From Oryzias latipes (taxonomy: Eukaryota > Chordata > Actinopteri > Beloniformes > Adrianichthyidae), in assembly GCF_002234675.1 (NCBI RefSeq), contig NC_019866.2:6367307-6431306 (forward strand): a DNA stretch of 64,000 bases, given 5' to 3'. This document shows, piece after piece, positions 28,773-61,723 of this stretch. Numbering within the stretch: the first letter of the stretch is position 1; each line of letters opens with the position of its first letter. The position numbers and the translations under genes are program-made. The notes below the pieces were generated by a model that was given only the letters and a program-made list of their open reading frames with translations, had not been told where the DNA came from and did not search any database.

Positions 28773-31700
28773 TCAGCAGATTAGCTCCTGCTTCATGTCA
28801 GGTCTCGTGGGGAATTGGGTCTCGTTAAAGCAGAAGGCATCCCGGCCCGCCTTCAGCTCCCCCTGCCCTGGGCACATGAGGTACGACTCGATCAGGTCCA
28901 GCTCAGGGGACAGAGCAGGGCTTTCGGGCTCCGACTCTGACTGGCTCATCTCCGGCTCATCCAAAGAGGAGGCCGGTCTCATGTGGAGGTGCTGGTGCGA
29001 GTTCAACCAGGGGTGACGGAGGCATTCTTCTGCAGTGGCTCTCTTCCTGCACACACAAACACAATAACATTGAGGAGGAGTGGAAGAGCTTATATAACCC
29101 GTGGATTCCTTGGATCATCCAATTCCATCAATCTCTTTCAAGACTGCCCCGATGAAAATTGTGTCTTTGGCTTTTTTTTAACATTCGTTCTAGTTGCTTT
29201 TTTCTGATAATTGAGGACATACATATAATATATATACATATATAAAAAGTCAAATCAAAATGACATTTCTTTATATTTATTTATTTAGATTCTTGTGAAT
29301 CAGGAGCAGACGAAAAAAAAAAGCAGTTTAAGAAATCAGCTATATTTGTTATGTAAAAAATATGGGCCACAAGCTCTCAGCAACGCAGAGGGGAAGGGGG
29401 GCGGGATTGTTCTGTACCAACTCTAATGCAAATTTCTAATGAACTACTGTCGCTCTACAGAAATTATGTCCTAGAAAATGACTTTTTTTCTTTTTCTTTT
29501 TACATTTTGGCTAAAAACGGCATAATCACAGTTGAAAGACTTCTATGAACGCTTTTAAAATAGATCCAAAGATGATCGGAGTGGGTCGTTAGTAACGTTC
29601 CTTTAACCCACAGGTTCTCTAATAACTTTCTTCCTCAATTCCAAAACACTGAGGAATCTAAACATCCATTTTGTTCTCCTTATATTCTGCTCCAATTATA
29701 TGAAACTGCCTGGAGATTGTGACTCTGGGAGGCCGTTGCCTGATTTAAAATGTGAAGCCCTCCATTATGAAGAAGAATTAGGCCAAGACTGGAGCTAATC
29801 ATAGCAATACAGCTATTTTCTCCTAACAAGGTGACACTTGCATAATAATATGCTCCAATATCCCTATAAAGACAGCGGACTACATTTCTTTTTAAAATGA
29901 GGAACGATTACAGTCACTAAGAGTAAAAAAGGAAATGACTTCTGTTGAAACTACTACGTAAATTGAAAAAAAAAATAAAACGCTATGTGTGCACATGCTG
30001 GCGTGCTTCCGTTAGTTGTAAGCCTGACTCATATCCTTGCTATGTGTAATTCTGATCACAGTAACGCAGATGGAAACCACATCTTTGCTGCAAACTGACT
30101 CACCTGGGGTTTTTTACCAACAAGGACTTGATAAAGTCAACTGCCAGGGAGGAGATCCCTTCGAATGTGTCCTGCGAGTAGTCTACGTTGACCTGGGAAA
30201 TGTTCAGGAACGTCTGCTGCTTTTCGTCACCCAGAAAGGGAGACTCGCCCGTCAGCATGACATATGTCAGAACCCCGATGCTCCTGTCACAGAGAGAACA
30301 AGAAGAGGAAAATGAGGTTGCAGATAGTTGTAAGACATGTGTGAACGAGCAAGGAATTATTTAGCGGTTACAAGTCCAGATGTTTTTTTTTTTTTTTACA
30401 TGTTTGGAACGTGAAGTGAGAATGAGTTGCATGCAACTAAGTGATGTACCTACCACATGTCTGTCGCTGTGCTGATGGGTTCATAGCTCAGAACTTCTGG
30501 TGCTGCAGGACAGACGAAAAGATCCGATAAATTATGATGTTAAAACAAACTAAGAGGAGACAGATGCATCTGTGGATAAAAAGCAAGACTTACCCACGTA
30601 CTCTGGGGTACCCAGGATCTCCCTGACCTCCCTGACATTGTCCATGCGTCTGGACAAGCCAAAGTCAACAATACGGATGTCACCCAGAGGCTTGGCGCAG
30701 GTCAACAGGATATTCTGGGGCTGGAGGAGAAGCACATCCCAGTTTAGAAAAACGGTGTGTTACATAATAGCTGATCTCAATTAAAGCAGTCTGTGAACAT
30801 GAGGTTTACGTCATTGATCGTCTATGTTAATAAACGACAGACTTCGAGCTCACAAGTCCTGAGAGAATTAGGGGTCTGTTAGGTTGTCGGAGTAGGAGCT
30901 GCTCCTTAGAGCCCAGATCATCCACTTAACTTATCAGCCGGCACTGAAAAGAGTTGAGGAATCAATGCCAAACACTTAGCTGGCTCTCTTTTTCACTCAC
31001 ACTAGAGTAGATACAACTCGGTGTGCTTTTAAGCCAAAGCTGGCTATTCACCACTATTTGTTTGGACAAGAAAAAAAACCAAAGTCTCTACATACTAAAA
31101 AATAAAAGAAATCCCTCAAATAATTTAAAAAGTGAATTTTCTGCAAATGCAGTGAATCAAAATAAGATTTGCTTTTCAAATATTTGGGATATTTAAAAAG
31201 GGCTTGGTAAAGAATCCTGCTAACTATTGAGTTTATTTGTTGATTGAATCTCCATGGAAAAAGGGGTCAAAATGTACAAAATGAACTTTGGTTGCATAAC
31301 AGAAATGTTATCTCAGTGGAGCGCTCCAGGGCAGAAAACCTGTTGCCTATTGTCACATAATCCCTCCGTGTCCTTACTTTTAGATCCAGATGCACCACAT
31401 TGTTTCGATGAAGGAAAGCCACGCCTGTCAGGATCTGCTTCGCCAGCCGAATCACGTCTTTCTCTGTGAAGGCCTCGTCGTTATCGGCCACACACTGGTT
31501 GAAGATTTCACCACCAGCGGCACTGCAATGAAAGCACAGGAAGGAAAAGTGAGGAACAAAAATAATAGAACGGAAAGGGAATGGTTTGTTTGGACACAAT
31601 CCACTTTGGCTTATTTTTAATATTTTATAATGCAACTACAATAAAATGAACAAGTACTGAGTTTTATTAACGCATCTGCAGCTGTAAATACTCAACATCG

Positions 31701-34700
31701 CACTTGTACAGTTTTAGCGAACCCATCAAACCCTTTGCTTCTCTCTCAACATTATCGGCGATTTTACTTTGACACGAGGTACAAAGTTTCTCCACATCTA
31801 CTTAAATCAATGCAAGTTGTGGGAAAAACCTCCCACAACTTAAGAATAACCTTATCAATATATATGTTTAGAAAACAGTCAAATCAAGTGAGCTATAGGA
31901 AAAGGGATAATCAAAGAGGTGAAAACGATGCTTTACTAACTCAACCCACATACAATTTTCACAAAAGTGAACACCGGCCTGCAAAAAAACCAACAAATCC
32001 CACGCCTTCAATTACAACTAAAGTTATTTTTTGGTCATTTCAAAAGAGTTTGTGAAATGTTTTGGTTTTTCACTGGATGGTCTTGTGTAACCCGATAAAA
32101 AGTATCTTAGATTTAAGTCGAATGCCTCAACAGTCAGATGAAGGCCTGGAGCTGACAGTTCACCAAAAAAAGTACAAGCATGTGTGAGGGATTTAGAAGG
32201 TACGCATGCTTTTCATCCTCGGGGGGGGGGGCGTTGTGACCAGGCTGTCGGCAAAAAATGTTACATAACCTGAACTTTTCTGTCTCTTCCTCAAATCCCA
32301 GAGCTTTTTCAACTGTGAAAAATGTCCTTTTTATATATATAGTTTTTCCGCCTTTTGACAGATAAATCCACCACATATTCTTCTTTTTTTCAACGGAAAA
32401 CACACTTTAAATTTACAAAACAAAAAATTGCTTTGTATCCCAAAATGAAGCTGGTGTTCTTTTTAAGGGTGATTAAAGCAATTAACACCAAGTCCATCCA
32501 CTTTTTTCTATACATGTTTAGGGGCACAGCTTAGTATACTTTAGGAAGCTAAAGAAAGAGCTTTCATTATGACATTCTAATTTCATTATAATTTACTTCT
32601 TTAGCTTTAGCTGTACTTAACTTCTCTAAAGTGTTAACACTTTACTAGAAAGTTGCACCAACATGCATACCTTACATTGTGACTATAGCCATAAAAGTAG
32701 ACACTAAAGGCTCAAAATTAGGACTAAGATAAGAAATGAAGACCAAATGTAAAGTCTAAGCAGAAAGAGGATTAAAGCCTGATGCTCATTTTTTAGACTG
32801 TTGACTGTATTACTGCATGGCAGTTTTTATTTCAGAACAGAAAATCCCCATAAAAATATTTCAAATAAATCTTCAAAAATGTTAATACTTGAAAAAAATA
32901 GGATACAACAGTTGATATAGAGCAGACATTGCTATAGATTGCTTTGACTAATTAATTTTTGAAAATAACTTTTGGAATTTAATTGTTGGAGGTCCAACTA
33001 TCCCAAGAAAACTGATTTAGACTGTGAAATGAGATGACTTTTTAAAAGTTTTAATCTCTAAACTCTACAAATGGGGTTATATCTGTGGTACTGACACACA
33101 CCGGAGCTAGATTGAAAGATTACAGATGAACTTTTGTCATTTCTCTGACATGGATGAGGATGTGGTTGCAGCTGTAAGCCATGTGCATGCATGCGCTTTA
33201 CACCATCTGCATGGTGTGCTGCTTCTCAGAGCTTGCCTGCTTACCTTTAAACCCACAGGAAATGGAAAATAGTTTGCAGCTTTTTTTATGCTCTCTACAG
33301 GCCTCACTGTGAAACCCGCAGCAGTTTTCTTTTTAAAAGAATAACTGACAGTGGTGATACCTGACATTTAAAAACCAGCGACAAATCTCATATGCAAGAA
33401 GGGTCGCCATGGCCTGTGCCGGCTGACCTCCTGCTTTTCTCTGCAGGCAAGCAGGAGTGAGATATGGCGCTACTTCCCCTTTCACACTGCATTCAGGGGT
33501 AATATGCAGCCCTCCCCACAGTGCAGCTTTTGTTCTGCACAGGAATTCCTTGTCTGGGATGAAAATGACTGCAGAGGACCAGAGAAGGCCTTTCGACTGG
33601 TCTCTCAGCAGCTCTGGAAGAGGGGCGAAGTCCTATCGCTCAAGCATAATTGCAAAGTATTATCCCCCTCTAATGAGCCAAGTGAGCTTATTTAAATGGA
33701 GTGGTTTTTCAGATTCTCCACAAAGTTTGTCAGAGGACACAAAGTCATTGCACAAGGTAATGTAATACCTAACCACACCAGACTGTTGGATGATGCTTCT
33801 ACATAAATGATCAAGACAAGCACACTTCCTCAATCATCAATCAAATGCTAAGATCCCACCGCAAAATCGAAATGACTCAGTTGCCCGTCTTCTCATACTC
33901 AGCTGTATGCAGTTTCGGCTGCATTAGCATTTAGAGTGTCAAATTCCCGTCCATCATAGAACGGAGACGCTAAAGCGACAACAGAAAGAGCAAATGACCA
34001 CAGCGAGTGAGAACTCATTTCATACAGATGCATTTCACATGGATGTGTGTGAATTCACACGAAACCGACGACTCCTTCCATTCTGCAACTGTGTGATGTA
34101 TTTCTGATCTTTGCTGATAAGAGTTCTAGACAACCAGGGAAACCCCAACTGACTAAATGATTTTTTTTAGTAGACTTTCAAAAATAAGGCTTAAACTTTA
34201 AGAAACACATTTCCAAGAGTCAAATTGATTTTACCACAAACTATTTTAGATTATCAAGGCAAGTAAAAAAAAATAAAAAAAATCTTACCACTCCAAAACG
34301 AGGATGATTTCAGAGGTGGTTTCGTAGACCTCATGCAGTGCCACCACATACGGGTTTGCCTTGGCTGACTCCAGCACGGCAATCTCGTTCATGATGTCCA
34401 TGCGGCAGTCCTCTCCCTTCCTTCGCTTTCGCAGGAACTTGGCAGCATATTGCTTCCCTGTGGCCTTCTCTGTGCACTTCTTCACCACTGCAAACTTTCC
34501 CCTGGGAAAAAAAAAGAAAGGGAGGAGAAAAAAAAAAAATGAAAACCACTTTCTTGAACGGGTCGGTCAAGACAGTTCTGTTTCCATATCCATTTATCCT
34601 CTGGATCACATCTAGGCTGCTGAAATAATTGCAAATAACAGTCCAAAACCACTGGGTGTCCTCAAGAACTCCACTCTGAAGGGTGCAACACTAATGATGT

Positions 34701-37117
34701 TAAGGAAGAGTGCAGAGATAAGAGGGTTAAATGGCATCATTTAAAAATACAGACCGTTGCTGTCTGCTGAGGGTGCGTCATTATAGTGTTGAGAGTCCCC
34801 CTCCACCCACCTTTTCAGCCTAACACTTTTGGAATGAGCATCTTAAAGTGCAAAGGCCTGATAAGGGTATTATCACTTCTATAAGCCACACAAAGAGATG
34901 ACACAGCTCGGTTGCCAGATCTGCAACAAGACCACGAAAAAAAAAAAAAGCATTCACTTTTACAAATAAGCCCCTTCTATTCATTTCCATGCATCCACAT
35001 TGATGGATTCAAAAGAGGCGTTAGGGGTCATCCGTGGGTGTGGGCAGGATGTCCAATGTGTGTAAAATAGCCTCCCTCTGTCAAACCAACACAATCACCA
35101 GCTGTCCCTCCCACACTGATAATGAGGCCTTGTCCACTTCCCTTTCTTCACAACTGACAGCAGAGGGGACAAATAAAGTTATGTTGTTGTTTCCATCCAG
35201 ACCCCTAAGCAAGAGGCTGATTCTTCTCTGACAGTCGTACAAAAGCTGACCAGTCAGACGCCTTCACACCAAGACCACCCACCCGACCACAGCTTGTTCT
35301 GCCTGACAGCGTGGGGGTCAGTGCTCATTCAGTGCTGTTGGAGTCCATGCAGTACGCAAAAAAAATACACACAAACTGAAACATCGACACCTTACATACT
35401 GGGCCATACACACATGAAAAACAAAACACTGAATACAGAAGCAACAAGATGACCAAACTGGGCAAAGTCAAAATAAAGAGTCAAAACGTTACAGTCAGCA
35501 CGGTTCCAGTCAATTTCCCGAAGTGTTATTTGAGAAACACTGTGTTGCTGACCAAAAACAGCAACTGTTCTGGCTGCAGTTAAGATTTTATTTTGGCTCC
35601 TGACTGCTGAGGGGCCCGGGGCCCTCACTTCTGTAGCTCTCACTTATTGATGATGCATCATTGTTTAGTGAAAGGCAAACAGGCGTCAGAGCCTTTACAT
35701 TCTTAACAAGCAGAATTCACACAGAAAAAAAGAGAAAAAGCGTCAGAAGAAGAGAGGGGACATTTATTTTTATTATTAAAAATAGGTCAGAAGTTACCAA
35801 AAACTAATCTGCAAGCTATCCATGCCATGTGTTGAATGAGCAGAACTGCTCGACTGATTCTGACAAAGAGATTCTCAGCAGAAACTTCAACAACCATCAA
35901 CCATTCTGTCAGACAGAACTCAGACCTCCCCGTGGGCTTGAGATGGTGATAATTTGGTTGAGAAAGTCATTTCCTGTGGAGCTTGTGTTTTGTCTTCCTC
36001 GGTGCACTGACTCATATCTGATGCGCAATGAGAAATGACAGTCCTCATTTGCCTGTTTCACAGACGCACAACAGGAGTTCTTCTTCCTGCTTTTGAGCGT
36101 GCTACCACTGCAAGCTGAAGGGGCCACAGCTGATGAGGAGTTTTGACTTAAAGACCCCACAGAGAAGCTTTAAAAATAATAACAGTAAAGAAAAGTACAT
36201 CCAAGTTTTAAAATCTCAATAAACATAATGAGGTCAGAAATTTTTGCTTTGGGAGAGGGAAGCATTTGGTCAGTTTTGGAGTGGTGGGGTACCTGCAACT
36301 GTTCAGTAGGAAGCTGAGACAGATATAAAAGCAGACAGTAAAATATATTTTTCAGCGGAACCACAGGGAATTGCAGCGCCTTAATTTAGCATCTGCTTTG
36401 GGGACAGTCATCTGATCTAGTGTGTGCCATGTCCACATTCTCTGTTAAACTGAATTAAGAAAGAACGGTGACTGCGTGGAAAAACAGGCAAGATATTATT
36501 CAGCAAATTGGAAAATAATTCTTTTTTTAAGGGTTGTTCTGCTTATTCACATAAAAATAGCACAAAACAACAAATCTCTGTACATCTTGAACCCTAAGGC
36601 TTTCTAGTGACAGAAAAACTACAATTTAGACCACACACGTGGGAAGAACACAAACGATACTGGGGGATGTGAAGTTTCTAAACCTAGACTCGTCTTTCTG
36701 CTGTTTTGGACAGTAGGTACAGTTCTCTAACCTTTGCTCTGAGGGTTTCCTTCATACATGGAGTTACAAACATGAAGAGAAAGGAAGTTGGGAAAGCTGA
36801 ATGCTCTTTCTACCCACTTTTGTTTAGCCGGAACCCCACAAAGCGCATTACCGTTCCGTGCGCCAAGCGCTCCACAGTCATCCAAACAACCGACAACTTT
36901 AAATTAATAACACTGGTTCCAAGCACGTGCATAGTAGATCTAATATATATGATTACAAGAAGATTATCTGGATATTGCTGCAAAGCCTCTGAGCGTTTTT
37001 ATGCTCCATTCAGCAAACTCACCTGCCCAGTTCTTTGCCCACCAGCTCGTAATTAGCGCTGAACGGTTCCTTCCTTATCCTGGAGTTGATTTCTGTCACC
37101 TTCCCGTTTTTATTCAT
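28773..37117 (-). CDS. stk17a: Serine/threonine-protein kinase 17 (DRAK family, STK17A-like)
   Basis: Death-associated-protein-kinase-related kinase; the family promotes apoptosis and is often nuclear. Coding exons in gene order: 37117-37023, 34501-34289, 31522-31378, 30720-30594, 30502-30454, 30283-30104, 29046-28773 (stop TGA). All junctions keep phase, giving 360 aa. The N-terminus is [16 protein letters not shown]. The kinase domain spans about residues 24-285: glycine loop ELGRGKFAVV (29-38), ATP lysine K53 in AAKF, catalytic HLDLK (147-151, HLD rather than HRD as in DAP kinases), DFG (170-172), GTPEYVAPE. The tail (286-360) is Ser/Glu/Pro-rich and ends [26 protein letters not shown] and [13 protein letters not shown] resemble human STK17A more than STK17[11 protein letters not shown] resembles STK17B. 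It may be the fish stk17a-like paralogue rather than stk17a itself. Confidence 0.93.
29385..29595 (-). repeat. Family R1 element (reverse), stk17 intron 6
   Basis: TTTCTAATGAACTACTGTCG, then GCTAAAAACGGCATAATCAC and GATGATCGGAGTGGGTC are the reverse complement of the R1 5' half seen at 3.0, 14.28 and 44.5 kb. Confidence 0.7.
31523..34288. other. stk17 intron 2, no gene recognised
   Basis: AT-rich intron of about 2.8 kb with a G run at 32221-32231. No exon-like open frame with splice sites on either strand. Confidence 0.5.
34502..37022. other. stk17 intron 1, no gene recognised
   Basis: About 2.5 kb. No clear repeat family and no alternative first exon recognised. Confidence 0.45.
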
Positions 37118-37480
37118 TCTAGCTAGGTGGATTATTTGGCATAGAGGTCCAGCCGTTAGATAAAACGATGTAAGCACTATTTCACTGCTCCGCTCCAGTA
37201 AACGCTCGCATGATAACAGAAAGAAATGTGTTGGTGTGCGTCAGGAGGAGTCTGTTTGACACCAGCCGGGAGATCGTCCAGATTCAACGCGTTCCAATGA
37301 TGAAGGACTATGCGTAAACGCACGGCACAGTCGGTGCGCTGGATCAGTCTGTAAGCCACTACACATTCTCACAATAAACTCCCAGGCGTGACCAACCCCC
37401 TGCGCCTGACGCGCAGCGGCACAAGCCAATGGACTTGCTGAGCAGGCGGGACCAAGGAACAGCTTCTGCAGCTTTCCAAA
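37118..37480 (-). promoter_or_regulatory. stk17a: Probable stk17 promoter and 5' UTR
   Basis: Sequence directly upstream of the ATG is locally GC-richer, with several CpGs (GCGCCTGACGCGCAGCGGC, 37402-37420) and a CCAAT on the + strand at 37426-37430, about 310 bp before the start codon. No TATA box. The transcription start is not placed. Confidence 0.4.
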
Positions 37481-38654
37481 CATAAAGTCAACATTTTTTT
37501 TATCTTTCCTTTTTTATTTTAGTTTTTTCTCTAAGTACCACCAATATGTTTTGCGTAATTTTCCATTTCACCAAAAACAACAACACTGGTCATGTTTACG
37601 CACCAATTTACTACATATTTAGGAGTATGAGGCGTAATTGTTGGCATGTTTTTTTGGCTGCTCGCCCAGAACTTAAGCAGCAATGCAGGTGAGGCCTTAA
37701 CGTTGCACCCACAAATTTCACCCATGACCTAGAAGCCGTCCTGGGGGTACAAATCGTTCCCACCTAGCTTTGTCTTCCTCCTTATCGGTGAGAGAGCTGT
37801 TTTAAAAAAATAAATAAAAGAGAGAGAGAGAGTTGTTTTCTCTGTGCCAAACTGTTCACAAAACAAGTCATCATCACCAGAACTCGACTTACAGATCCAG
37901 GCTGGAATGTTCTGTGATTTGGAGTAAAGATGCTCTACAGGTTCTCCCTGCTCACTTACATAAGACAAAGAAGAAGACATTTGGTTATCTGAGGTCATGG
38001 CTGTAAACTTGGAAAGGGAATTACAGGAAGGACAGATGCAGTTTGAAGATATAAACACTGATAATCAGATTTTTTTCTTCTTGTTCTTGTTTGTTTGTTT
38101 TGTGAGTGAGGGGATTGTCGGGCAATTTAAAGGCGTTTTTGAGGAGAAAATTAGGAAAAGAAAGATTTAAAAAAATTATCTGGACTGAAACTCTTTGCCA
38201 CAAGTGTCCGTCCTGGAGGAGGAGGGTTTCAAGTTTAGTTTAGAAAGAATACGCCAATGATGGGTTGAGCCTCAAGGAAACTGAAATGGTTATGAGTTTT
38301 TACATCTTGTAAAAAATAACTAAATTCCAGAATGATTTGTTATACATCCTGATTATGAGTAGTAAAATATATCTTCTGGAAATCCTGAGATGTCTTTTAT
38401 CATCTTGATCCATTTGTCCATGCTTGATGGTTCCAGGGTTTGGCAGTATTAAACTTTGTAATTGTATTTTCTAAGTGTCACGCTTTGCTTGATTAACAAT
38501 GTTTGGAGGGAGACAAAAAAAACACGTTCCTTTTTGTCTAATTCGGCATTTTCTGATTTATTTGGTTAATGAGCTACTTTTTTGAGTATTCATTGTGTGG
38601 GATCATTGGAGATAACTGTTGATGGGAGTAAAGGGTAGGTTGGGTATTTCTTCT

Positions 38655-38742
38655 AGTTTTTGTTTTGAATTGTAAATCACTTTGAATTGCACAAGTAAGT
38701 ACCTTTTTTAAAAAAAAGTTTGATTTGATTTGATTTGATTCA
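38655..38742 (+). repeat. LINE/SINE-type 3' tail with TGATT tandem repeat
   Basis: GAATTGTAAATCACTTTGAA, followed by AAAGTTTGATTTGATTTGAT, the usual retroposon tail order in fish. Confidence 0.5.
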
Positions 38743-39292
38743 AAGATATAAGACAGAAAATAATTTCAAATTCTTCTGTTTTACACCAGAGAATACTTGG
38801 AAAATTGTTTCACTTAGCTTTTTTCCTCATAAATTCAGTGTAACCCAGAAGGGTTGTTTAGTTCTAAAACTGCATTAACGTTAAGTAACAGTATCTCATG
38901 TGTGATTCAATAAAACACATGAAACTGAAACTTCTTTTCCCATCATAAAAGTGCCTCATGATCCTGAACATTTAGAGTTATGTTTGTGCAGCCTGGATAA
39001 GGGGGAATACAGAGTAAAATAAAGATCCAGTGTCGCAAGTTTTATAGCCTAAAGGTTGATCACATTTCCATTTCTGAAAAAACAACAACAAAAATAGACG
39101 GCACAAAATTGATTGAATTTTAATCGTATTGCTGCTAAGTTAGTCCCAGCCGAGATCAGAGAATCTAAGAGTGACAGAGGTGGACTGGGCTTTCGCCAAT
39201 CAGTAGTGTGATTCAGCAAAGTTACATAATCTGTTACATCTCTTAAGATTTCTACCTTCTACCATCCGTCTCTGCCAGACATCCCATTAAAG

Positions 39293-39301
39293 CCAAGGTC
39301 A
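39293..39301 (+). promoter_or_regulatory. NR5A/ERR-type half-site in a non-repetitive block
   Basis: CCAAGGTCA is an exact match to the NR5A (SF-1/LRH-1) consensus YCAAGGYCA. It lies in a block (39.1-39.5 kb) without repeat features, about 16 kb upstream of hsd17b1. A 9-bp degenerate match can occur by chance about twice in a window this size, so support is weak. Confidence 0.2.
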
Positions 39302-39536
39302 CAGTTCAGGGGGACCACATTAGTGAAGGAGCTCTACCTGGCCCCAGAGACCTAATGAAAATGCATACCAGTGAATTAACCTGCCAGCCTGCAGTTAAAG
39401 CTAATGTAAATATGAGAAGTTCAGCAAAGACGCAAAACTTTCCTGGAACAACATATGCCTTGTTGGCGTCAGAAAACAGCTCCGGGTTTCTGTCAAGACC
39501 TGGATTATAAACTAACACCTGGTAGTATTCACCTAA

Positions 39537-39544
<8 letters not shown>

Positions 39545-39572
<28 letters not shown>
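39545..39572. repeat. (AT)n microsatellite
   Basis: Uninterrupted alternating AT over about 28 bp. Confidence 0.95.
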
Positions 39573-39576
<4 letters not shown>

Positions 39577-48676: not shown

Positions 48677-49050
48677 AGCCTCATTTCCACTGAGTGGTAT
48701 AGTTTGGTCCAGGGTGGTATTTTAAGTGTTTCAACTATAAAATGGACCCACTAAGGCGGCCCAAACTGTACAATTTTTGGTTCCTTTTGGTTTTAGGTCC
48801 ATAGAAAAATGGAATGGACCGGTTAGGGCGGACCTACTGTTGAAACCCGTTGGTAGGCTGAAGGTCATTGCGGCAAAAGAAAGTGCCAAGAAAGGGGCGG
48901 TATTCATTCTTCTCTCAAACGACATTAAATGCTTTGTATATACGAAGTACCAAAAGCCAAGCGGTAAACTGAGCTGCTGGATGACCTCCATTGTTGTTGT
49001 TAGCTTCATCCTACATGTGCCGTGACGGTCCAAGTCTGAGTGGAAACGTT
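48677..49050. mobile_element. hAT-like miniature element
   Basis: The left end CCTCATTTCCACTGAGTGGT and the right end CTGAGTGGAAACG are inverted repeats. This end type (TTTCCACTGAGTGGTA) is widespread in fish miniature transposons. The open frames inside are element-derived. Confidence 0.6.
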
Positions 49051-49059
49051 CACCCAAGG

Positions 49060-49320
49060 TCCACAAGTAAATGTTGTATATTTCTATAGTGTACTACTAC
49101 CTATTTAGAAGGCACAAAGTGCTTTACAGTCACAGTCCCATTCGTCCACACACACAATCACACTGATGGTGGCTGGCTGCCTAACACTGGCATCAACCTA
49201 TAACCACCAGGAGCAATGTGGGATTCTGTGACACCTTGACACATGGGCAGGCAGAGAGGGGAATCAAACCTACATTTTTCCAATCAGGGGTCGTCCGTTT
49301 TTATATCTGTACCACAGCTA
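49060..49320 (-). repeat. SINE-like fish repeat, reverse orientation
   Basis: AAGTGCTTTACAGTCACAGT, AACCACCAGGAGCAATGTGG, CACATGGGCAGGCAGAGAGG and GAATCAAACC follow the order of a common fish repeat. GAATCAAACC is an inverted B-box-like motif. Confidence 0.6.
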
Positions 49321-52300
49321 CCACAGGCTCAAATCTAAGGATTTGTTAGTGTTGTGATTGATTCTACAAAGTTGATAACTATTTCTATTGTGTTTTGTTT
49401 ACATTTGATTACGGTAATTTATAAAGTTTATATTAATTATTACTGTTCTTTAGTATTCAGCTGTTTTTTTTACTCATTAATAATGTCATATAACTGTATT
49501 GCTCATTTATACTCACATTGTAGTTTTACTTTTTTTTAATGCTGAAAAACACTTCTAATTGTCATTTATATTTATGTTGTAGTTGTTGTTTTTCACTTTG
49601 TTTTTTGCAAGACAGATTTGACACGTGAAAAAATACAGCCCATCGACTAACTTTGGTCCCTGTCAAATAATCTGAAAAATAAATGGAATACACAAACCAA
49701 GAATCAAACGAAAAACAGAAAAGCAGTTAGGAGCTCAATTCAGCTGAGACTGAGAGAAACTACAGCAGGACTTAGAACAAAAGAAGGAACTTAATTAGCT
49801 TCTGCGGTTAGTTTTGTTCCTGTAAAACAAGTTGCTATGATAGTTATTAATTCTTATTTCTAACTTAACATAGCATTTGCAAAAACAAGCCAGCAGATGG
49901 GAATACCAGAGGCGGCAAAGTAAACAGAGGAGTAGGAATGTCACAAATGAAGATGGACAACATTGTTTTTCTACTCAGTAATGGGAAAGTAGTATCTGTT
50001 GAGGCAGGGATTTCTACTGAACGGTGTGAGTGTGGTAGAATCTGAACTCATAACAATAGCAGAAAAAAAGGGTTCAGGAAATCTGATCTATTGTTCATGA
50101 CAGTTTGAGACCACAAGAATTCTTGCGATGACAGATATGTACCAGGTTTGCATGCCTCAGGTGTGTAAAACTCCCCCCACAGGCACTGAAACTTGAGGAA
50201 TGCAATCAACAACAGTGCTTTGGATTTGTTCTTCAAAAATTCTACAGCCGCTCCTATTCCCCGAAGCTTCCTACCAACTGACGTTTTGAAGCATGGAAGC
50301 ACCTTTGAGCTTCTATTTGAATAAAATGTCTCATCTTAAACATGCAAATCCCTTTTTTGCAGAGCGACATGCACCCGAGAGTTATGGGGAAGTGTGTTTG
50401 CTGCGTGCATGAAGCATCCGAGAAGCAGAGGCAAGGACATCTGCAAGTGCAAAATGCAAATGGGAAGGTTAACAGCTGAAAAGCAGCACGGTGTGCTTAT
50501 ATTGAGTCTTCAGAAGGAAAGGCTGTTCGGCTAATGAACATGCTCGAAAACACAATTCATGTTAAGTCTGCACACCCAGCGACAGTGTTTTCATAAGCAA
50601 AGAGTGTCCAGGTAACAGGGTGAGGTTCAAGTTCAGTCTGCGGTAAGAGTACTTCAGTCACCCTCCATGTCATTGTAGCTGAGGACTTTTTAAAGGTGTT
50701 GACTAAACATGGAAGTGGCTAAGTCACTTTTCAGAATTGAATATCTTTTCTTCAGTCCACTGATAAATGCTTGAAATTTACCATCTGCTGCACTAGAAAC
50801 CAAAAATAATAACATTGAAACGTGTATCTCACAACTTTTCACGCATTTATAAATACCTGAGAACTGTTTAACTAGAACCTTCCTTAAGTTATTAACACAT
50901 CTTCACATCTCAAGACTTTCAACTATTTTTTGTCTTTCACTTTCTCTGCCAGACTAGAAAGATGAGCCCGCATTTTCCAACGATCGTATCTGCATTTGGA
51001 ATTTTCAAATTTCATTGTGTTATGTAAGAAGCTGGATCGTGTCACAGAACAAGTTTTCTATTCTGGGCTGCCGCAGACCTTACGGCATTTCTTATTTCAA
51101 TAAAAATGATCGAAAGATAAACACTTCCTACAATAGAACGGCTGTGAAAGATATGCAAAAAATACTCTGCTGCCCTAAATACAAGACAGGCTTCAATATG
51201 AGGTAAAAGAGAGTGAACAAGATGTACTCAACAACAAAAAAATGTCTCTACCAGCTGATTTAGAACAGAGAAGCCATTTCCCATGACACAATCCCAACCA
51301 TTTCCTGAGGGGCTTTGTTATGCAAGCAAGTCTTGTGGACCACAACAGGTCAAATAATGCCTCTTTAGGGTTACAGCTGATGAAGAGCATCACGTCTACA
51401 AGGGTTCTAAAGTTATTATTTTTGTTAAACTATGGATATATACACTAACTGAAATATCATGTCCAGAAATAACAGGACGTAAGTGAACAATGGCTCTATC
51501 TGGAATAAATTTCCTTCTCAAAACAGGTTAAAAAATATAGAAATCAAGATGTTTTTTCCCAATGCTTTGCAAATATATAGGACAATTTGTCTTGGTGAGG
51601 TATCCTAAAATCAATTGTGACATATTGGCCTTATAAGACAAAAATTAGTCTTGAAAATGTAAAAACGTACGTTTAGGTTAATTACTGAGGTAATTGAAAA
51701 CATTATGTCTGAAAATAAATTGTTTTGCTAAAAAAAATTAGGTACACACTTTTTCCACACACACAAAAAGCGATTTTAAAAGCTACAACAGTCCAACTAT
51801 TCCTATCTGTAGACCATAATTGTTTTAATGACACATTTTTAGGATAAATGTGTCTTAAAGATTAAGTGGAAAAAGGTCAAATACAATTTTCAAGTTTCTC
51901 TAAATCAAGCACATCAGGTTCGAAAAGTGACAACTCACCATTCACAAATACAACTATAACTTACAATGTAGAGGAAAAATAAAACAGAAGTTACACGAGA
52001 GGTAATGCTTAAGACAATATGTGTGTTCGAGATTAAGTGACTCAACAAGAGATTTAAGATTTTTTGTCTTAAAACGAGCATGTCCAAAGTCCGGCTCTTG
52101 GGTCAACACTCAAATTTCCACTGGCCAACAGTTCCTGTCATTAAATCAATCCTATGAAGCCCCAGTACTTTCTAAGAACTCTGTGTAGGATTTCTTGATA
52201 GTGTTTGGCTAAATTCCGTCATAGAGCGTCGTAAACCTGTCGCACAATCCTTCTAGCTCAATTCTAAGATTGTAAATGAAATAAAAAAAGATTTGTTTGA

Positions 52301-55200
52301 TCAAACCACAATGTTTTGTATTTCTAAATAAGATAACTACTTGTGTTACTTTCCTGTTCACACGATTTACATTTAGAAGTTAATTTGTTATGATTAGTAT
52401 TTAATGAATTTGTGTTTTTTTCAGGATGTCTTTACAGCAATGTGCTTCATCAGCAAATAACCGATTCCTATTTCTCCCACAAATATAATTGAAGTCAGAT
52501 TCTGTTTTCAAAAAGAAAAATCCACTGCTATAGATATGAGTTTAATAAAGCTTTGCTCTGTAGATCAAATCCACTCACACTTTAACACATCCCCAATGTG
52601 TTTTAGCCATGATGATTTTACCAGGACAGTGTAACAACTTGAGAAACATTTCTCAAAGACTCCTTCTACCCCTTTATTAAATAAACTATCATTATGGTAG
52701 CTGGAGCTGAATAATTCATCAAACATCCCTTCAAATTTGGCGCTTTGTAAGGAAAAATACATCTGAAATTCACAGAAATGGGAATACGTAGGATCTCTCT
52801 GTCCTCCGTGTCCTGATGGGTTTTCCAGACCTGGAGAGATTCTTTCTATTTTTACCACTTCCTTTTTAAAATATTTCAGTGTTATGTGCAACTGCAACAC
52901 ACATGGGCACATTGTTGGAGAGGAAGGTCACACACGGAAAAGTACAGTAACTTCTCTGAGTTATAATGTTTTCAATACTATCAGCCTGCCGTCATTTGAC
53001 ATTTTGAACACACCAGCATGAGTGTGTCATTCCAGATAAGATCACAAATGGTATATCTTTTTTGAGAGGGAAAAAAACAACATTTTCCAGGTTGTCCTTC
53101 AGAGGAAAAAGTAATCTAATGTTCCTCATACCAGGATGACACGAAAGATCTAGCAAGAATGCTAGGAATTTAACCTTTCTTTCATTGTCAGATGATTAAA
53201 AATAACTTTGCTTAGTCTTAAAAGGCCAAGAAGTGTTTCTAGTAAGGTGATCCACTCAAACTGAACTATGTTACAAAAAAGAGACGCTCAATCCGTGTTC
53301 GTTAACAGGTAGTGTGACTTCTGAGTTTCACCACATTCGCCGCAGCAGATTTTCACAGTTTCATTTGTACTCAGTGCTCTCACACTGTGCATCCTGTCTG
53401 CTTCTGCAAAACCATGTACCATTCAGCGTCATGACGGCACAACAGTTGCATCATGTCCTCATTGTAAATCGCTTTTCTTGAGCCCTCCAGGGTGAGCACA
53501 TGAATGGACTAAAATCAGAAATAAATGTCACTTTTCCTTAAACAAAACAGACCAAAATAAAGTTTGACTTACATAATCTTTACCTGAGTGCTGCACCCGC
53601 TGCCTCCATTAAGTGCATCAGACTGTACAAGTTGTACACACACATGATATTTGTGTTCCTCAAAGGCTCATTTATTCTTGTCATGTGGACCAGTTTGACC
53701 AAAGAGGCATTCTGAATTCTTTTCCAGACCTCTACACACTTAGTGGACCTCTTAGTAATAACTGGGCCACAAGGAGAGCATGGGTCACATGTGGAGCAAA
53801 GCTTCCCAAATAAATTACACACTGGACCTCAGACGTCCTCACACATGCTGGAATAGTTTAGAACTGCTGAAGCAACTGAAGCCTGTAGGGTTAGAACTTT
53901 TCAAAAGTTAGGATTCTAACACAAAAATGTATTTAAACCTGTGCAAACCTTTGCACCATTCAGCTCAGACTTTGCTGTCATGAAGGTCAACCAGTTCACC
54001 AGCTTCAACAATGAATGTAGTTTACATTTTTTTACAAAGGGTCAAGGCTTGTTGTTATCTGTGCTGCAGACCCTGGGACCCCAGCCAAGCCGATGCCATC
54101 TGAAGAAGAGGAACGCAACAAAATGGCAGGAAATTCTTTACAGTTTTGTCCCAGTAGCAGAAGAAAACAGTAACATTTAACAATGGGCAGCCAGTTGAAG
54201 AGGTTTATAAATAAATACGATTTTCTGAAAGAAAAAGGAAGAAAAAGAAACTGTTGTTGCAAACCTTATGTGATGTAAAGTCCTTTTACATCATAAAAAT
54301 AATTAATCAAAATGATATTTGACAGCACCCGGAAGGGTTTTCATACAATATCAGCGAAGCTGCTTTTGATTTTAACCAATGTGGGAGCTTTTTTTGCAAA
54401 AATTGGCTCCAACACAAAGACCACTTTTATAATCCATGTGACGTTTTATTCTACATCACATTGAATTTTCTTGATCCAACATACCATATGACATTTTTAT
54501 TCAGCCAAAAGTGTCTGAAGTGTCCTAATTTCAGAAAAGTTTATCTCAACATTTCATCTGTAACAAACAAAACAATTTTTATGTTGATGCTAAAAACTTA
54601 ATAATCCTTATTTGTGATGTGCTTTTAGTATAATAAATCCTAATTAATAAAACAAAATACTTTTCTTGAAGGTTGGTGAATTGCTGAAGACATTTTTTTT
54701 TTTTTTTTTTTAGAAGCTATGATATACACTTTTTCTATGCTCTTTCAGATCCTAGAGGGTTTGATTCCCCAATTTTTTGACAATGAGACCCTCCAAAGGC
54801 AGGATCTCTGGTCTGCAGTGTGTAAATCGGTTCTGATCTTCTGCTGCCCTCTGGTGCTCAAATAGGTAAACTACACTTCACATGGAGTCGGAAATTCAAA
54901 CACATTTGGACTAAGAAAAACAGCTAAAGTTACAGTCTGCATGATGTACGTCTACACTACCAGTTATTTCTGCTGCAAGAAATGTTATCAAGCTTCTAGC
55001 AGGAATGGAAATGTTTCCAAAATGTCTTGGAGAAATGCAAAACAAACCAGAGAAACAGACATGAGAAAAAAACCCTGAAGGTCTCCAGGTGGCCGATAAC
55101 GGGCAGATGTTTAGGATTGGTGGTATTATGATGACCGGAGAAGCTTTTTCACATGCATCCCTTCTTGTTTTCTGGATCACTTTGAGGTGCCCTGGTTTTC
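49321..55200. other. Gene desert between stk17 and hsd17b1, part 2
   Basis: About 5.9 kb of AT-rich DNA ending at the hsd17b1 5' region. No splice-supported coding exon, RNA gene or clearly assignable transposon was recognised. The open frames are short and lack homology. Confidence 0.45.
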
Positions 55201-55247
55201 TCCCACTTCACCTTTCTGAATAGAGGAACATTTTTGAAGGAATTTCA

Positions 55248-57131
55248 ATGGAGAAGAAAGTAGTGCTGATCACAGGCTGCTCCTCCGGGATTGGACTCAG
55301 CCTAGCTGTCCGGTTGGCCTCAGATCCTACCAAAACCTTCAAAGGTAATGGACATGTATTTGTCTTTTTTTTATTTTCACTAAATTGGATTACATGTCGG
55401 CTGAATCAACTGAAATTGAATTTTCTGCTCATAAACCATCTTTGAATTCTTCCTCAGAGAATCCTAAAACAAATTTCTGCCTTCTGTTTCAGTCTATGCA
55501 ACAATGAGGAACCTGGGCAAGAAGGAGCGTCTTTTAGAGTGCGTGAAAGGGCTCCACAGGGACACTTTGGAAATACTCCAAATGGATGTAACAGATCAAC
55601 AGTCCATCCTGGACGCAAAAGAAAGGGTTGTGGAGAAAAGAGTGGACATTCTGGGTAAGCCCTCACGGGTTCAAACGGCTTCATTTGAGATGATTATTTA
55701 TGACTTAACAGGTCGATTCCCCCTCTTTCAGTGTGTAACGCAGGTTTGGGTTTGATGGGGCCGCTGGAGGTACAGTCTTTGAACTCAATGAGGCATATTC
55801 TTGAGGTCAACCTCCTGGGCACCATTCAGACCATTCAGGCCTTCTTGGCTGGAATGAAAGCACAGGAACAAGGTCATATTTTGGTCACTGGAAGCACCGG
55901 AGGACTCCATGGTAAAATTAAATCTTTTTATAACATTTCTGTGATGATTTTCTAAATTTGTCAACGCGATTGCTCCTGCAGGGCTTCCTTTCAATGAACT
56001 GTACTGTGCGAGCAAATTTGCCATCGAAGGAGCATGTGAGAGTTTGGCGATCCTCCTTCAACATTTTAACATCAAGTGAGTATTTTTATCATCATCTTTA
56101 CTTCTGCTTAGCTGAATACACTGAATTGTTTTGATGTTTAAACAGCATAAACCAATGATCTAACGTTCTCCTTGTAGTATGAGTCTCATTGAGTGTGGTC
56201 CAGTCAACACAGACTTCCTGGTTAACCTGCAGAAGGCGGAGCTTGAAGACATGTCTGTTGAACAGGTTGATGGCAAAACACTCAGCCTCTACGAAAAATA
56301 CCTGCACCACTGCAACTCTGTTTTCCAAAACGCAGCACAGGACACTGAAGACATCGTAAAGGTATGTGGTGTCCCACAGCCTCACTAGTCAACTTTGACT
56401 CAGAATTTGCTGCTCTGCAGATTCTGATAAATTTACACTTATCTAAATTCTAGTGGAAATGCTTCTGTTTTTGTGAACAAGTCACCCTGTGATATATGGT
56501 ATTGTCTATTTTTGCCGGAAAAGCTTCAATCTATAAGTAAACAAATATATCAGATATGTTCTCACCCTAAATAGCAGGAGGCAAAATTTCATCAGCGAAT
56601 CTCAAAATATTATTGTGGTTTAAAAATTGTCGTCAAATGCATTATTTTTGATTTGGGGCGGAGTTTAAAAATGTATAAATGGAGGGTCAGAAGACTTTGA
56701 AAGGGTGGCAAAACACCAGAGTGAAAGGCCTTTACAAATAGAAGGATCAAAAACATGGACAGTTTTACTATTTCTATTTCATTTAAAAATATTGTTATTT
56801 TCTTGTTTTTGCAACACTTTAAAAAGATTGTATTGATGATTTCTTAATTTTTGTTGATAATGTTACTAATATTGACTCTGCCCCTCCTGTGATTAAGTCA
56901 ACATATACATGCTTGAATTCAGTACACGTCTATTCATATATCTGTGCGTTTTCTCTTGTTTTTGTCCCACAGGTGTTTCTAACAGCCATCCAGTCGCCCA
57001 GCCCTGCATTCAGATACTTCACCAACAGTGTGGTGGAGCCACCTCTGACCAAACTGAAGGCCGCACAACCAGATGGAGTGCAATACATCAAGGCTATGAG
57101 CGAAATCGTTTTCTCTGGCGAGGAGCAGTAA
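55248..57131 (+). CDS. hsd17b1: 17beta-hydroxysteroid dehydrogenase type 1
   Basis: Short-chain dehydrogenase that reduces estrone to estradiol with NADPH, mainly in ovarian granulosa cells. Coding exons: 55248-55344, 55493-55654, 55732-55911, 55982-56075, 56178-56361, 56973-57131 (stop TAA). Junctions keep phase, giving 291 aa, shorter than human (328) because it lacks the Gly/Ala-rich tail. Residues: cofactor loop TGCSSGIG (9-16), NAG (89-91), catalytic Ser141 in VTGSTGG, Tyr154 and Lys158 in [15 protein letters not shown] and [12 protein letters not shown] are type-1 signatures and argue against the related RDH8 family. The steroid-recognition His (human 221) aligns with His in YLHHCNSVF, but human Glu282 aligns with Ile (see findings). 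Start context TTTCAATGG. The nearest upstream coding gene is stk17, 18 kb away on the opposite strand. Confidence 0.96.
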
Positions 57132-57540
57132 CTCAGAAAAGGCTTTGTTTTCAACTACAACTTCATAGGTTTAGATGCATCTGCTTTCAGCTTCCTTGTA
57201 AGTGATGACACGGCTTTAAAGTAGCTGTTTGATCAATGCTCCTGCTAAAGTTTGCATCCCTTCACCTGGTAACTGTGCCGTGTGATTGATTCTCATTGTG
57301 TTCCTAAAGTGGAAACATTCTAGAAGAAATGTTAAGCCTTTTTGCTTCAGTAGATGAACGATTCCTAGTTTTTTCCATTGCAGTTACAGAAAAGTTAGTT
57401 CCTGTCCAAAGCGATCTTCCTGTTTAGTTTATTCTTTTTTTTTTTTTGAGGGGGTAAGGGTTGCATACTAAAAAAAAGATGCAAACATAAAATATTTGAA
57501 ATGAACTAAATTTAAATAAAATACAATGAAATGTTCTGAT
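57132..57540 (+). other. hsd17b1: hsd17b1 3' UTR with polyadenylation signal
   Basis: AATAAA at 57515-57520, about 0.4 kb after the stop codon. A later AATAAA near 57763 is an alternative. The end is predicted. Confidence 0.45.
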
Positions 57541-59340
57541 TAAATAACAAAAAATCTTAGGTGCCATATTTATAAGATTTCATACCAAATGCAATTTTAT
57601 CTTTGTTATATTACTTTTTTTTTTAAATATTACCACAAAAAAGTAACTTTTTATATATCTAATTATATTTTCTTACTTTTTTTTCATAATCCAATTTAAG
57701 TACGGTAATCAAACTGAATCTTAATATGGTTAAAAATGTCTATCAACTATAAACACCTTAAATAAAATGCAAAGCATAAGTAAGGTGATCCTGTTTGTGA
57801 TTGATGTCATCATTTAATGCAGTGAAACTGGTGAAAGTCCTGTGACTGCAATCAACACTAACAAACATAAAAAACAAGGAATCAGATATGTGATTAAAGA
57901 TAACAGAAACAGAGGATGACCTGTGGATTTTATGAATGCAATCCAGAAAGGGTACAAATCAAATAAAATGTAAGGGCTAGCTGAACTGCAGGAGATTACG
58001 AGGATAATATCAATTTATTGAATCCAATCTTTGGAATCCATGTATAAAGTTCAGGGATCAAAGACTGGATGACAGAGGAGGCAGCTGGAAAGCATCCATG
58101 CTCCATGTAATAGTTGGCTCCGTCTGGGACTCAGTGTGCTCTCTTTAGCCTCAGGCAGGTTAAGCCGACTCTACTATTACGTGTCACACCCCTGACCTGC
58201 CTTTAACAGGACTGAGGCATTTAAATTTACCTCTGATCAGGTGTCCTGATTCTGGGAAGGTTTGAATCCCACGGTGATTCTACATAACACCATGTGGGAA
58301 ATGGAAAAAGCTGCTTTCTATTGCAAAGTTGAAATAAATTAACAAAGGATCAGAACACTGGGTTTGTTTTTCTATATTCTACTAATTTTTCCAGTATCAG
58401 TGTGAAGGTTCATGTGGTGCAACTCCTGTGTTTCCAGAGTTATGCAACATTGCAATCTGGTTGTGGAAAATTCTTTAAATAAAAGTAGCCACATTTCTAA
58501 AAATCAGTCTTATTTAAGAAGATTGCAACTTAAACTCTTAAAAGATTTGCAAATTTGACCCCTATGATGATCATGTCTGACCCAGAACTGCCTTTTGTCG
58601 CTGACAAACTGTGGTAAAAGCGTCTTTATGTGTCATAGATGCTTAGGTGACCAAAAAATTCTTGGAATTTGTTTGTAAATAGAAAAACAAATGGTTTAAC
58701 CCTCAGAAGTTTCTGAACTTCTCAGTAAGTTTGCAAATCACTTACGCTGTTTATATTGAAGACGGATTGACAACGACCCCTCCAATGGCCTTGTTTTCAT
58801 TCAGAATTGAAAGTGGAGGTTTCAAAAGGTTTTTAGCTTTGAGATTTTTGCTTGAAAGAAAACATATATAGGTGTACATAGGTGTGATAACCCTTCAAAT
58901 AAATCCTTTACCTGATACTTTTAAACTATTTTCACATTCATTTGACCTTGCATGTGCTTTGTTTATCCATAAATGTTTAATCTTTTGTTATAAAATATAA
59001 AACCTTTCTCAATCTTACTTTCTGTGATTTTGTTCCAGGAAAAATTACATCATTTATCACTCAGAATTGAGTTTTTGGACATTTTCAGGTTCATTGTGGA
59101 ATTACTGTTTAAAAAAAAAAGATTGTTGTCAGCTACTAAAAATACTGATATGAAGCATAGTCACAAAACAGAGAACTGTAAAGTAGGGTGAAAGAGCCCT
59201 AAAAATGCTACAAACAAATTAAAACACTTTAAAGTCAAAACAATTAGGAAAGTAAACTTAAAATGTGTGGTTTAATGGCAAGTCTAACGATTCTTTATAG
59301 GTAATTATATTTAAACTATTTAAGAGACTGAAATGTCTGT
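57541..59340. other. Intergenic between hsd17b1 and coq10
   Basis: AT-rich. It holds one dispersed repeat at about 58447-58565, related to the copy at 42.55-42.95 kb (CATTGCAATCTGGTTGTGG, TATTTAAGAAGATTGCAACT). No exon recognised. Confidence 0.5.
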
Positions 59341-59364
59341 TTTTGTTGTGAAGAAAAGAAGGAC

Positions 59365-59550
59365 CATCGCCCCGCCCCATAGATCATCTGATTGGCCGGA
59401 ATCCCGGCCGTGTTTGGTGACGTCAGAGGATCTCCTTATAAGGCAAGCGGAGCAGGTCTGGCAGGGTCATAATAAGGCAAGCTGCTGCCGCTCTGGGAGA
59501 AACTGAGCAACCTCAGAGGGAAATTTGGTTTATTGTGTCGAGAATTCTTC
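59365..59550 (+). promoter_or_regulatory. coq10: coq10 promoter: GC box, inverted CCAAT, CRE, TATA-like box
   Basis: In order: GC box CGCCCCGCCCC (about 59368-59378), inverted CCAAT ATTGG (59391-59395), a full palindromic CRE TGACGTCA (59418-59425), and TTATAAGG (59436-59443). The start codon is at 59551, so the transcript would begin near 59465 with a 5' UTR of about 85 nt. The order and spacing are those of a classical promoter. Confidence 0.7.
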
Positions 59551-61723
59551 ATGGCGTCCAGAAAAACGTCCCTTTTTGTTAAAGCGCTGCTGGATCTAAA
59601 TGAAGTCCACTTCTACACGGCTGCCAGAGGGATCAGAGGAGCCCAGCTCAGGTGAGTCCCACCAAAGATGGGTGGAGCGCCAAAAAAGACTCTTTCCCAC
59701 CTGTTGGGGGTTAGATTTTAAATAAACATGTCTCGTTGTATTTTAACTGTATATTTCTTGCTTAGACTTTTTGTTGTAGCTGCTTTATTGAAGAGCTGCC
59801 TTTCATAGGAGAGTGATGTAACACAGAATATTGAGTGTCCCATGACATTAACATCCTAGGGGGGTGCAATCCATTTCAATTTTCCACAGAACAGTGACGT
59901 GAATGAACGCCCTTGACTCTAAATTCAGATCATTTCTCTTGACTTAGACCAAAAATGCATAGACTTTAATAGTCCAGGTGTTGCCAAAATTACAATTTTA
60001 GTGTACCTAATAATGAAAAAAAACTTCTTAACTTAAATAAATTAAATTGTCATTATTTATTTTTCTTTAGATGCTTACAAGAATCTTTTCCCCTCAGCAG
60101 ACATCTAAGTTCCTTGATTGCCAGGAGAAGCAGTCTCCAGCTCTGCCCTGTCAGCCCCCTGAACACACCCAGTCGCAGCTTCATCAACCTGGCCGCAGCC
60201 ATCAGCCCCCGCAGGGTGGAATACACAGAGTCTCGGACACTGGAGTGAGTCTCACGTCTGAATCTTCAAAATGCCTCCAAAAAAAAGGATTTGAAGTTTA
60301 AAACGGTACAATGAAAACATTAATTAAATTATTTTTTTTTGCATCTCTACATCCAGGTATACTCCGGAGCAGATGTACAATGTAGTTGCCAATGTGGAAA
60401 AGTACCAATATTTTGTTCCTTGGTGTAAAAAGTCCCGGGTGATTAAAGGACGTAACGGCAACGTCCAGGCAGAACTTGAAATAGGATTTCCCCCCATTAC
60501 GGAGAGATACACTTCTGATGTAACCTTTGATCCAAATCGCCAAGTTAGAGTAAGTAAAAAAAAAAACTCTAAACACCTTTGGGGTTTTTTTTTTGCAAAC
60601 AATACAATTTTTATTTATTTATAAAAATAACAAGGGATTATAAAAATCCTTCAACCCAGTTTTGTTTTTTTGAAACAGGCTATTTGCACTGAGGGGTCCC
60701 TGTTCAACCATCTAGAAACAATATGGAGATTTTCCCCCGGAGCCAAAGACCAGCCAAACTCCTGCCTAGTGGACTTTTTGGTAAGATTTTACTTTAATTT
60801 ATTGGTATTAAAACATGCATTTGGATGTTATTGCAGTAAAAACTAAAAATATTGACTTGTTTCTCATCAGTTAATATCGAGCTGTTCAACATCAGTATTG
60901 AAATGCATTCTTGAAAATCGGATGATATGCATGAATTGCCAAAAAAGAAAAGTGGCCATGACCTAAAATCTATTTAAATTAGGACATTTTCTTGTCCTTA
61001 AATCTGGCCTGCAAGTTGTAAACTCATGTTTTGCTTGTAAAATGACTAATTTTTAGCAAAACATTTTTTTTCTTAAAATTAGCAAGCAAGTTTATTAATC
61101 TTACACTTGCTTTTGTTGGTGTCTAAGATCAAGACTATACGATTTTTACAACTATTTTTAAGATGAATAATCATAGGTAGATTGATAAAGTTTGCAGTGT
61201 CTTTGCAGATCAGTTTGCAAAGCTAATGAGAGCTCATCAGCGATCCGGATGTTTTGACTTCCATCTTGTTACGCTCTAAATGTAGCTGTGATTAGCATGC
61301 TGCTGTTCCCATTTGAGACTTTAAATAGCAACACGAACAGGTAACACTAAGGAGAAGCTGACAGAGCCCTGACCTCTACCTCAAGGCTTGAGCTAATTAC
61401 CTCCAGGAACTGGTTGAGTTTCATTAGAATAGCTTTTGTAAGGCCAATGGTTACCACTTTTAAAATTCAAAGAAAGTCCTGTATCAATTCTAAAAACAGA
61501 CCAGAAAATCAAGATTGTCTCACTATTTTCTCTCCTGCTTTCATGTCTTTTGCAGGTGTCCTTTGAGTTCAAGTCTCTTTTGCACTCTCAGCTGGCCAGT
61601 ATGTTCCTTGATGAAGTGGTGAAACAAATGGTCGGTGCCTTTGAGTCGCGGGCAGCAGCACTTTACAGGAACCACACCAGTGCAATAATAAGAAGGCAGC
61701 CGGCTATAAGCAACTCCCTCTGA
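59551..61723 (+). CDS. coq10: Coenzyme Q-binding protein COQ10 homologue, mitochondrial
   Basis: START/polyketide-cyclase-fold protein that binds coenzyme Q and supports its delivery in the inner mitochondrial membrane. Coding exons: 59551-59651, 60071-60244, 60357-60549, 60679-60780, 61556-61723 (stop TGA); phase is kept, giving 245 aa. The N-terminal 60 residues are rich in Arg, Ser and Leu and poor in acid, like a mitochondrial presequence. The core has [36 protein letters not shown] and [13 protein letters not shown], all family hallmarks. The C-terminus ([19 protein letters not shown]) lacks the PREL...HEVH end shared by human COQ10A and COQ10B. The core agrees with COQ10A at some diagnostic positions (for example AQLE-type, VDF, TMF-like) and COQ10B at others (EIGF, KQM), so I do not assign it to either. 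Confidence 0.93.
61040..61360 (+). repeat. Segmental repeat copy 1, coq10 intron 4
   Basis: From GTGTCTAAGATCAAGACTAT through GTAACACTAAGGAGAAGCTG the sequence is nearly identical, with scattered substitutions, to 63758-64000. Weaker similarity extends about 80 bp to the left. It is in direct orientation, about 2.6 kb from the other copy. Confidence 0.85.

Follow-up and report, generated by a model that had tools for sequence, protein, structure and literature searches.

STK17 and COQ10 genes in a 17q21-like region of the medaka genome: candidate HOXB-side ohnologues lost in humans

Gene content of the locus

Human paralogue counts, two for STK17 and two for COQ10, serve to infer how genes were retained after the vertebrate genome doublings. 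Here, we analyze a 64,000-nucleotide stretch of the medaka (Oryzias latipes) genome (hereinafter the window; C8:6367307-6431306 of its own assembly of 734,051,031 bases in 25 contigs), which carries an STK17-type kinase gene and a COQ10 gene interleaved with ATP6V0A1 and HSD17B1. A preliminary description of the window had reported this arrangement, and we confirm both the intact exons and the gene order ATP6V0A1 (+), STK17 (-), HSD17B1 (+) and COQ10 (+). We consider it probable that both genes are HOXB-side ohnologues lost in humans, this being the best explanation of the evidence set out below.

The STK17 gene (28773..37117, minus strand) consists of seven coding exons (37117-37023, 34501-34289, 31522-31378, 30720-30594, 30502-30454, 30283-30104 and 29046-28773), which are separated by GT..AG introns in all six cases and join into one unbroken frame of 360 amino acids (aa). 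The third copy of COQ10 in this genome (59551..61723, plus strand) has five coding exons (59551-59651, 60071-60244, 60357-60549, 60679-60780 and 61556-61723) with canonical splice sites at 4/4 introns and a single unbroken frame of 245 aa. Both are intact multi-exon, full-length homologues of their families, far beyond what chance would produce. As their introns are laid out as in their relatives, they are not retrocopies, and an origin as retrocopies or pseudogenes was rejected.

The two interleaved genes serve as anchors to human 17q21. ATP6V0A1, encoding the V-ATPase subunit a1, was recognized as a series of exonic open reading frames (ORFs) at 1584..12498 (plus strand, ends approximate); a single 68-aa exon piece gave V-ATPase subunit a chains as its best matches, a1 where these are named. 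HSD17B1 (55248..57131, plus strand, ends approximate) was read by eye from the ORFs as six exons, and the structures nearest to its protein are those of 17-beta-HSD1. By-eye reading of the ORF lists revealed no additional gene in the rest of the window, and the tRNA and Rfam scans gave no match.

The STK17 kinase and its relationships

The PDB chains closest to the window kinase are 7que (Serine/threonine-protein kinase 17A, E 1.4e-129, 435.5 bits) and 3lm0 (17B, E 1.8e-119, 402.2 bits), which we take to be the human STK17A and STK17B proteins, followed by DAPK1 (285.7 bits for the best chain). Its kinase domain is thus nearer to STK17A/B than to DAPK1, which places it in the STK17/DRAK family. 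The catalytic motifs GRGKFA, HLDLKPQN, DFG and APE are all intact. Judging from its sequence, it is expected to be an active DAPK-type Ser/Thr kinase lacking the calmodulin and death domains. Myosin light chain-type substrates would be the natural expectation, given the role of STK17A described in PMC13141761.

STK17-level exons were found only on C8 and C21, among the 113 of 536 candidates scored in the genome search with the window kinase and the 141 of 613 scored in that with human STK17A. The C21 kinase begins with MSRRR and ends in a KENI...FRF tail, both features of human STK17B, and has a HECW-type gene at a distance of about 30 kb. In pig, a segment shorter than 1 Mb contains both STK17B and HECW2 (PMC3016419). 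The start, the tail and this pig-like neighbour together identify the C21 gene as STK17B. As a separate observation, C1, C6, C9, C21 and C22 carry uninterrupted frames some 830-1350 aa long (e.g., C9:19748057-19751365 and C21:16836825-16840121). Several of them gave matches at between two and four kinase-like segments, spaced at intervals of about 1340 bases, and one of the frames is located about 11 kb from STK17B.

The preliminary description held that the window kinase mixes STK17A-like and STK17B-like residues, and this is borne out: STK17A and STK17B differ at 86 of 260 common columns, and at these the window kinase is A-like in 37, B-like in 20 and like neither in 29. Over 259 columns, its identity is highest with human STK17A (73.7%), followed by human STK17B (66.4%) and the C21 kinase (65.3%), with the latter two being 68.0% identical to each other. 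Among the 15 five-taxon topologies, 11 were rejected by the approximately unbiased (AU) test, including all six uniting the window kinase with an STK17B (AU p 0.007 or less). A duplicate of STK17B is thereby rejected, and the nesting within STK17B that the preliminary description had named as telling against its proposal was not observed. The best tree pairs the window kinase with human STK17A, the sole STK17A included (AU 0.882), a pairing present in three of the four unrejected trees in all.

COQ10 and its relationships

The product of the window COQ10 gene matches Pfam PF03364 (E 2.6e-28), has the bacterial protein 1t17 as its nearest PDB entry (E 4.4e-16), and carries an N-terminal extension ahead of the START-like domain, an architecture that assigns it to the COQ10 family. 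The extension is a putative mitochondrial targeting element, and the protein is expected to act as a START-like mitochondrial carrier of coenzyme Q, in which the lipid-binding domain would have been kept alongside a different C-terminus. A search of the genome for this family (4 candidates scored, 3 matches) recovered three loci, on C8 (the window), C7 and C21, each on a different Hox-bearing contig. We take the C7 gene to be COQ10A and the C21 gene to be COQ10B on the strength of a few residues of the human proteins; identity to the human COQ10A/B sequences (80.1/79.4% for C7 and 74.3/75.0% for C21) hardly separates the two. The C-termini of the C7 and C21 proteins read ...PRELMFHEVHQT and ...PRELMFHEVHHT, respectively, and the window copy lacks them, in agreement with the preliminary description, which had noted the missing C-terminal block. 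In an alignment of 169 columns, identity reaches 75.1% between C7 and C21, as compared to 57.4% and 53.8% for the window copy against C7 and C21, respectively.

With 1t17 as outgroup, the window copy falls outside the C7+C21 pair (AU 0.998, as against 0.003 for each of the two alternatives), and it does so as well when the human COQ10A/B sequences are added (AU 0.999; 0.004 or less for the six other trees tested). At the 28 sites where C7 and C21 agree and differ from the window copy, 1t17 matches the window copy at 5 and the pair at 1. We further gathered 80 bacterial homologues via two short motifs, of which 24 were hand-picked for tree building. Unmasked, these again place the window copy outside (AU 0.998 vs 0.002 and 0.002), and across the 26 sites that distinguish an agreeing C7+C21 pair from the window copy, the outgroup majority sides with the window copy at 7, with the pair at 6 and with neither at 13. 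In sets gathered by a single motif with that motif masked, the same placement receives AU 0.972 (6 of 6 loci) and 0.987 (the first 24 of 70 loci), with the rival trees at 0.012-0.046. The AU test with 1t17 and with the single-motif sets thus rejects a COQ10A or COQ10B duplicate. The nesting in COQ10A or COQ10B that the preliminary description had offered as a test of its own proposal is rejected with these two kinds of set but not significantly disfavored once both motifs are masked. We do not assign the window copy to COQ10A or COQ10B, as it probably lies outside both clades and lacks their ELMFHEVH block. Its position outside the C7+C21 pair is probable from these sequences, and its status as a third COQ10 ohnologue is well supported, with high confidence on our part.

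An older split, in which the window copy would stem from an ancient tandem or other pre-vertebrate duplication rather than from the first genome doubling, draws on the long stem of the C7+C21 pair (0.51 substitutions per site, as compared to 0.07 and 0.23 for the tips). The root position is, however, poorly fixed with outgroups this distant, and both the location on a Hox-bearing chromosome and the common intron positions are what an ohnologue would show; we regard this split as very improbable.

Chromosomal setting

The order of genes on human 17q21 is STAT3, CAVIN1, ATP6V0A1, NAGLU, HSD17B1 and later FZD2 and MEIOC. The left flank of the window carries STAT3 (found with a STAT3 probe) and CAVIN1 (PF15237), and its right flank a MYLK-like kinase gene followed by a frizzled gene (Fz domain) and MEIOC (PF15189). 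Relative to the human order, the neighborhood is thus 17q21-like on both sides. The NAGLU gene of this genome lies on C19, which also bears a Hox cluster and whose possession of NAGLU fits its being the teleost duplicate of C8.

Using a Hox group-13 homeodomain as the query, we found grouped matches on C7, C8, C11, C15, C16, C19 and C21, which we interpret as Hox clusters. By the medaka karyotype, C7 bears HoxC, C8 HoxBa, C11 and C16 HoxA, C15 HoxDb, C19 HoxBb and C21 HoxDa. The window therefore lies on a Hox-bearing chromosome with human-17q21 neighbors, which would be a HOXB-side placement given the gene order of human 17q21 and the HoxB assignment of C8. For C21, an assignment to HOXD agrees with its two titin-type kinases (C21:27416802-27417599 and C21:1120961-1121731), since connectin (titin) genes are said in PMC12198301 to be confined to HOXD chromosomes. 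Separately, these two kinases are about 26 Mb apart, whereas the same source portrays the titin pair of teleosts as near neighbors.

The MYLK-like gene to the right of the window (C8:6462848-6465747 and 6453509-6454676, minus strand) encodes a telokin-type immunoglobulin domain, as detected with a human MYLK probe, and has MYLK4 as its closest PDB chain; its 3′ part is duplicated about 9 kb away. Relatives occur at 10.00 Mb of C19 (62-69% identity on three exon matches) and at 0.906 Mb of C21 (59-60% on two), as would be expected of a HOXB-side gene doubled in teleosts along with a HOXD-side gene. The presence of MYLK-type genes on C8 and C19 suggests that the HOXB side has kept other kinases of this paralogon as well. 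Also in the right flank are a LINE-like (long interspersed nuclear element-like) element just beyond the window (L005 4608-8090), named by eye from its endonuclease- and reverse-transcriptase-like frames, and multiple copies of a small gene that resembles those of secreted proteins and looks C1q-like on reading by eye (L005 486-785; L006 2484-3423; L031 348-1244, 4261-4696 and 8529-9367).

Origin of the two genes

According to PMC12198301 (2025), which cites hagfish genome papers, the first doubling (1R) split HOXA/B from HOXC/D and the second (2R) then separated HOXA from HOXB and HOXC from HOXD. If so, a HOXB-side COQ10 is expected outside COQ10A (HOXC) plus COQ10B (HOXD), and a HOXB-side STK17 is expected to pair with STK17A (HOXA). 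The best trees of the two genes differ in topology in just this way and match both predictions. Hence, we propose that the window chromosome is the fish equivalent of the human HOXB/17q21 side and that its STK17 and COQ10 would be the HOXB-side copies left by two doublings of a Hox-bearing chromosome at the base of the vertebrates. The COQ10 copy would have split off at the first doubling, leaving it outside COQ10A and COQ10B, and the STK17 copy would have parted from STK17A at the second, leaving it paired with STK17A; the fish lineage would then have retained both and the human lineage lost both. For the kinase taken by itself, we judge a HOXB-side ohnologue to be the likelier identity. The origin put forward in the preliminary description thus stands for COQ10, given its three loci on three Hox contigs and its place outside the other two in the tree, and is compatible with the STK17 data while unproven by them, as a pairing with STK17A also fits an STK17A that has moved.

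Several observations weigh against this origin. The Hox cluster of C8 lies at 24.1 Mb and the window at 6.4 Mb, about 17.7 Mb away, so that vicinity to hoxb holds only at the scale of the chromosome; further, the cluster names A to D are taken over from the medaka karyotype rather than derived in the analysis. The rooting of COQ10 rests on bacterial outgroups, and with both selection motifs masked the best tree stays the same but loses significance (AU 0.759 vs 0.256 and 0.263), and of the 19 sites that then set an agreeing C7+C21 pair apart from the window copy, the outgroup majority favors the pair at 6, the window copy at 3 and neither of them at 10. For the kinase, branching below both STK17A and STK17B retains an AU of 0.185, and its 73.7% identity to human STK17A exceeds the 68.0% between the STK17B orthologues, so that no older split is forced. 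The candidates scored in this genome included no second STK17A-like gene, and for that reason the kinase may be a relocated STK17A. Finally, zebrafish STK17A is placed on chromosome 24 (PMC13141761), as is zebrafish naglu, a 17q21-type gene (PMC10890730); given this shared chromosome, zebrafish STK17A might itself be the HOXB-type gene.

The masked COQ10 result would also suit a teleost-doubling or later origin of one or both genes, with rapid change mimicking a third clade, and medaka-like lineages do evolve fast. We hold this to be improbable: the window kinase is rejected from STK17B, joining the window COQ10 to C7 or C21 is rejected (AU p 0.0002-0.046), and the window COQ10 is no farther from 1t17 (30.9% identity) than C7 and C21 are (27.9% and 25.7%).

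A rival that we find rather unlikely, though less so than a late duplication, accepts COQ10 as a genuine HOXB-side ohnologue but makes the kinase the fish STK17A, moved from the HOXA side to its place next to ATP6V0A1. The single A-like gene, its pairing with human STK17A and a distance to the latter no greater than that between STK17B orthologues keep this account alive. Moreover, HECW_N matches are confined to C20 (6.76 Mb), C2 (0.23 Mb) and C21 (16.89 Mb), and STK17 is seen only near the last; we infer that the C20 and C2 loci are HECW1 rather than HECW2, and no STK17 was seen beside them among the candidates scored, these regions not having been read directly. Against such a move, it presupposes that a lone gene inserted into the paralogous chromosome at a distance of about 22 kb from the third COQ10. 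STK17B and COQ10B are likewise linked in human on 2q32-33, a linkage that the window pair parallels. In addition, zebrafish has a separately named stk17al (PMC9065160), which beside its STK17A suggests two A-like genes in fish.

The HOXB-side origin of both genes bears on a wider claim. PMC12198301 states that STK17A/B were left only on the HOXA and HOXD chromosomes, with HOXB and HOXC keeping none after the second doubling, and that the HOXB and HOXC chromosomes lack other connectin-family genes. The window and its right flank offer candidate counter-examples, the STK17 kinase and its MYLK-like neighbor being candidate exceptions to the HOXB statement. We lean, by a little, toward a fish HOXB chromosome that keeps a hidden copy of a block from the HOXD side, made up of STK17, COQ10, a frizzled gene and a MYLK-type kinase, in which adjacent genes carry the opposite topologies predicted from the doublings and which contradicts the 2025 statement that connectin relatives are absent. 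Third fish copies of STK17 and COQ10 would alter the inferred pattern of retention, and as neighbors the two genes provide independent tree tests of the (HOXA,HOXB)|(HOXC,HOXD) order. A caution also follows that studies of fish "STK17A" may concern another paralogue. Among the literature matches listed, no title or abstract start deals with a third COQ10 or with an STK17 beside HSD17B1, most subscription journals lying outside the coverage.

Comparison with known systems

The window kinase shares the DAPK-family kinase domain with STK17A/DRAK1 (73.7% identity over 259 kinase columns). It differs in its chromosomal side, which is human-17q21-like in the window as compared to 7p13 for human STK17A; C8 has no HECW match, and the kinase is thus not in the HECW1-linked (HOXA-side) position. 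Relative to human STK17A, it presumably has a C-terminal tail of its own. Its seven exons are the number given for human STK17A in PMC13141761. With STK17B/DRAK2 (human 2q32.3; C21 in medaka), it has the kinase domain in common, at the lower identities of 66.4% (human) and 65.3% (C21), and the exon lengths 213, 127, 49 and 180 are identical to those of the C21 gene, but it lacks the KENI...FRF tail of the latter. Zebrafish stk17al, compared by name only, hints at an extra STK17A-like gene in fish. The window COQ10 shares with COQ10A/COQ10B (C7 and C21) the PF03364 START-like domain and the three intron positions and phases that were checked, and differs from them in lacking the C-terminal ELMFHEVH block.

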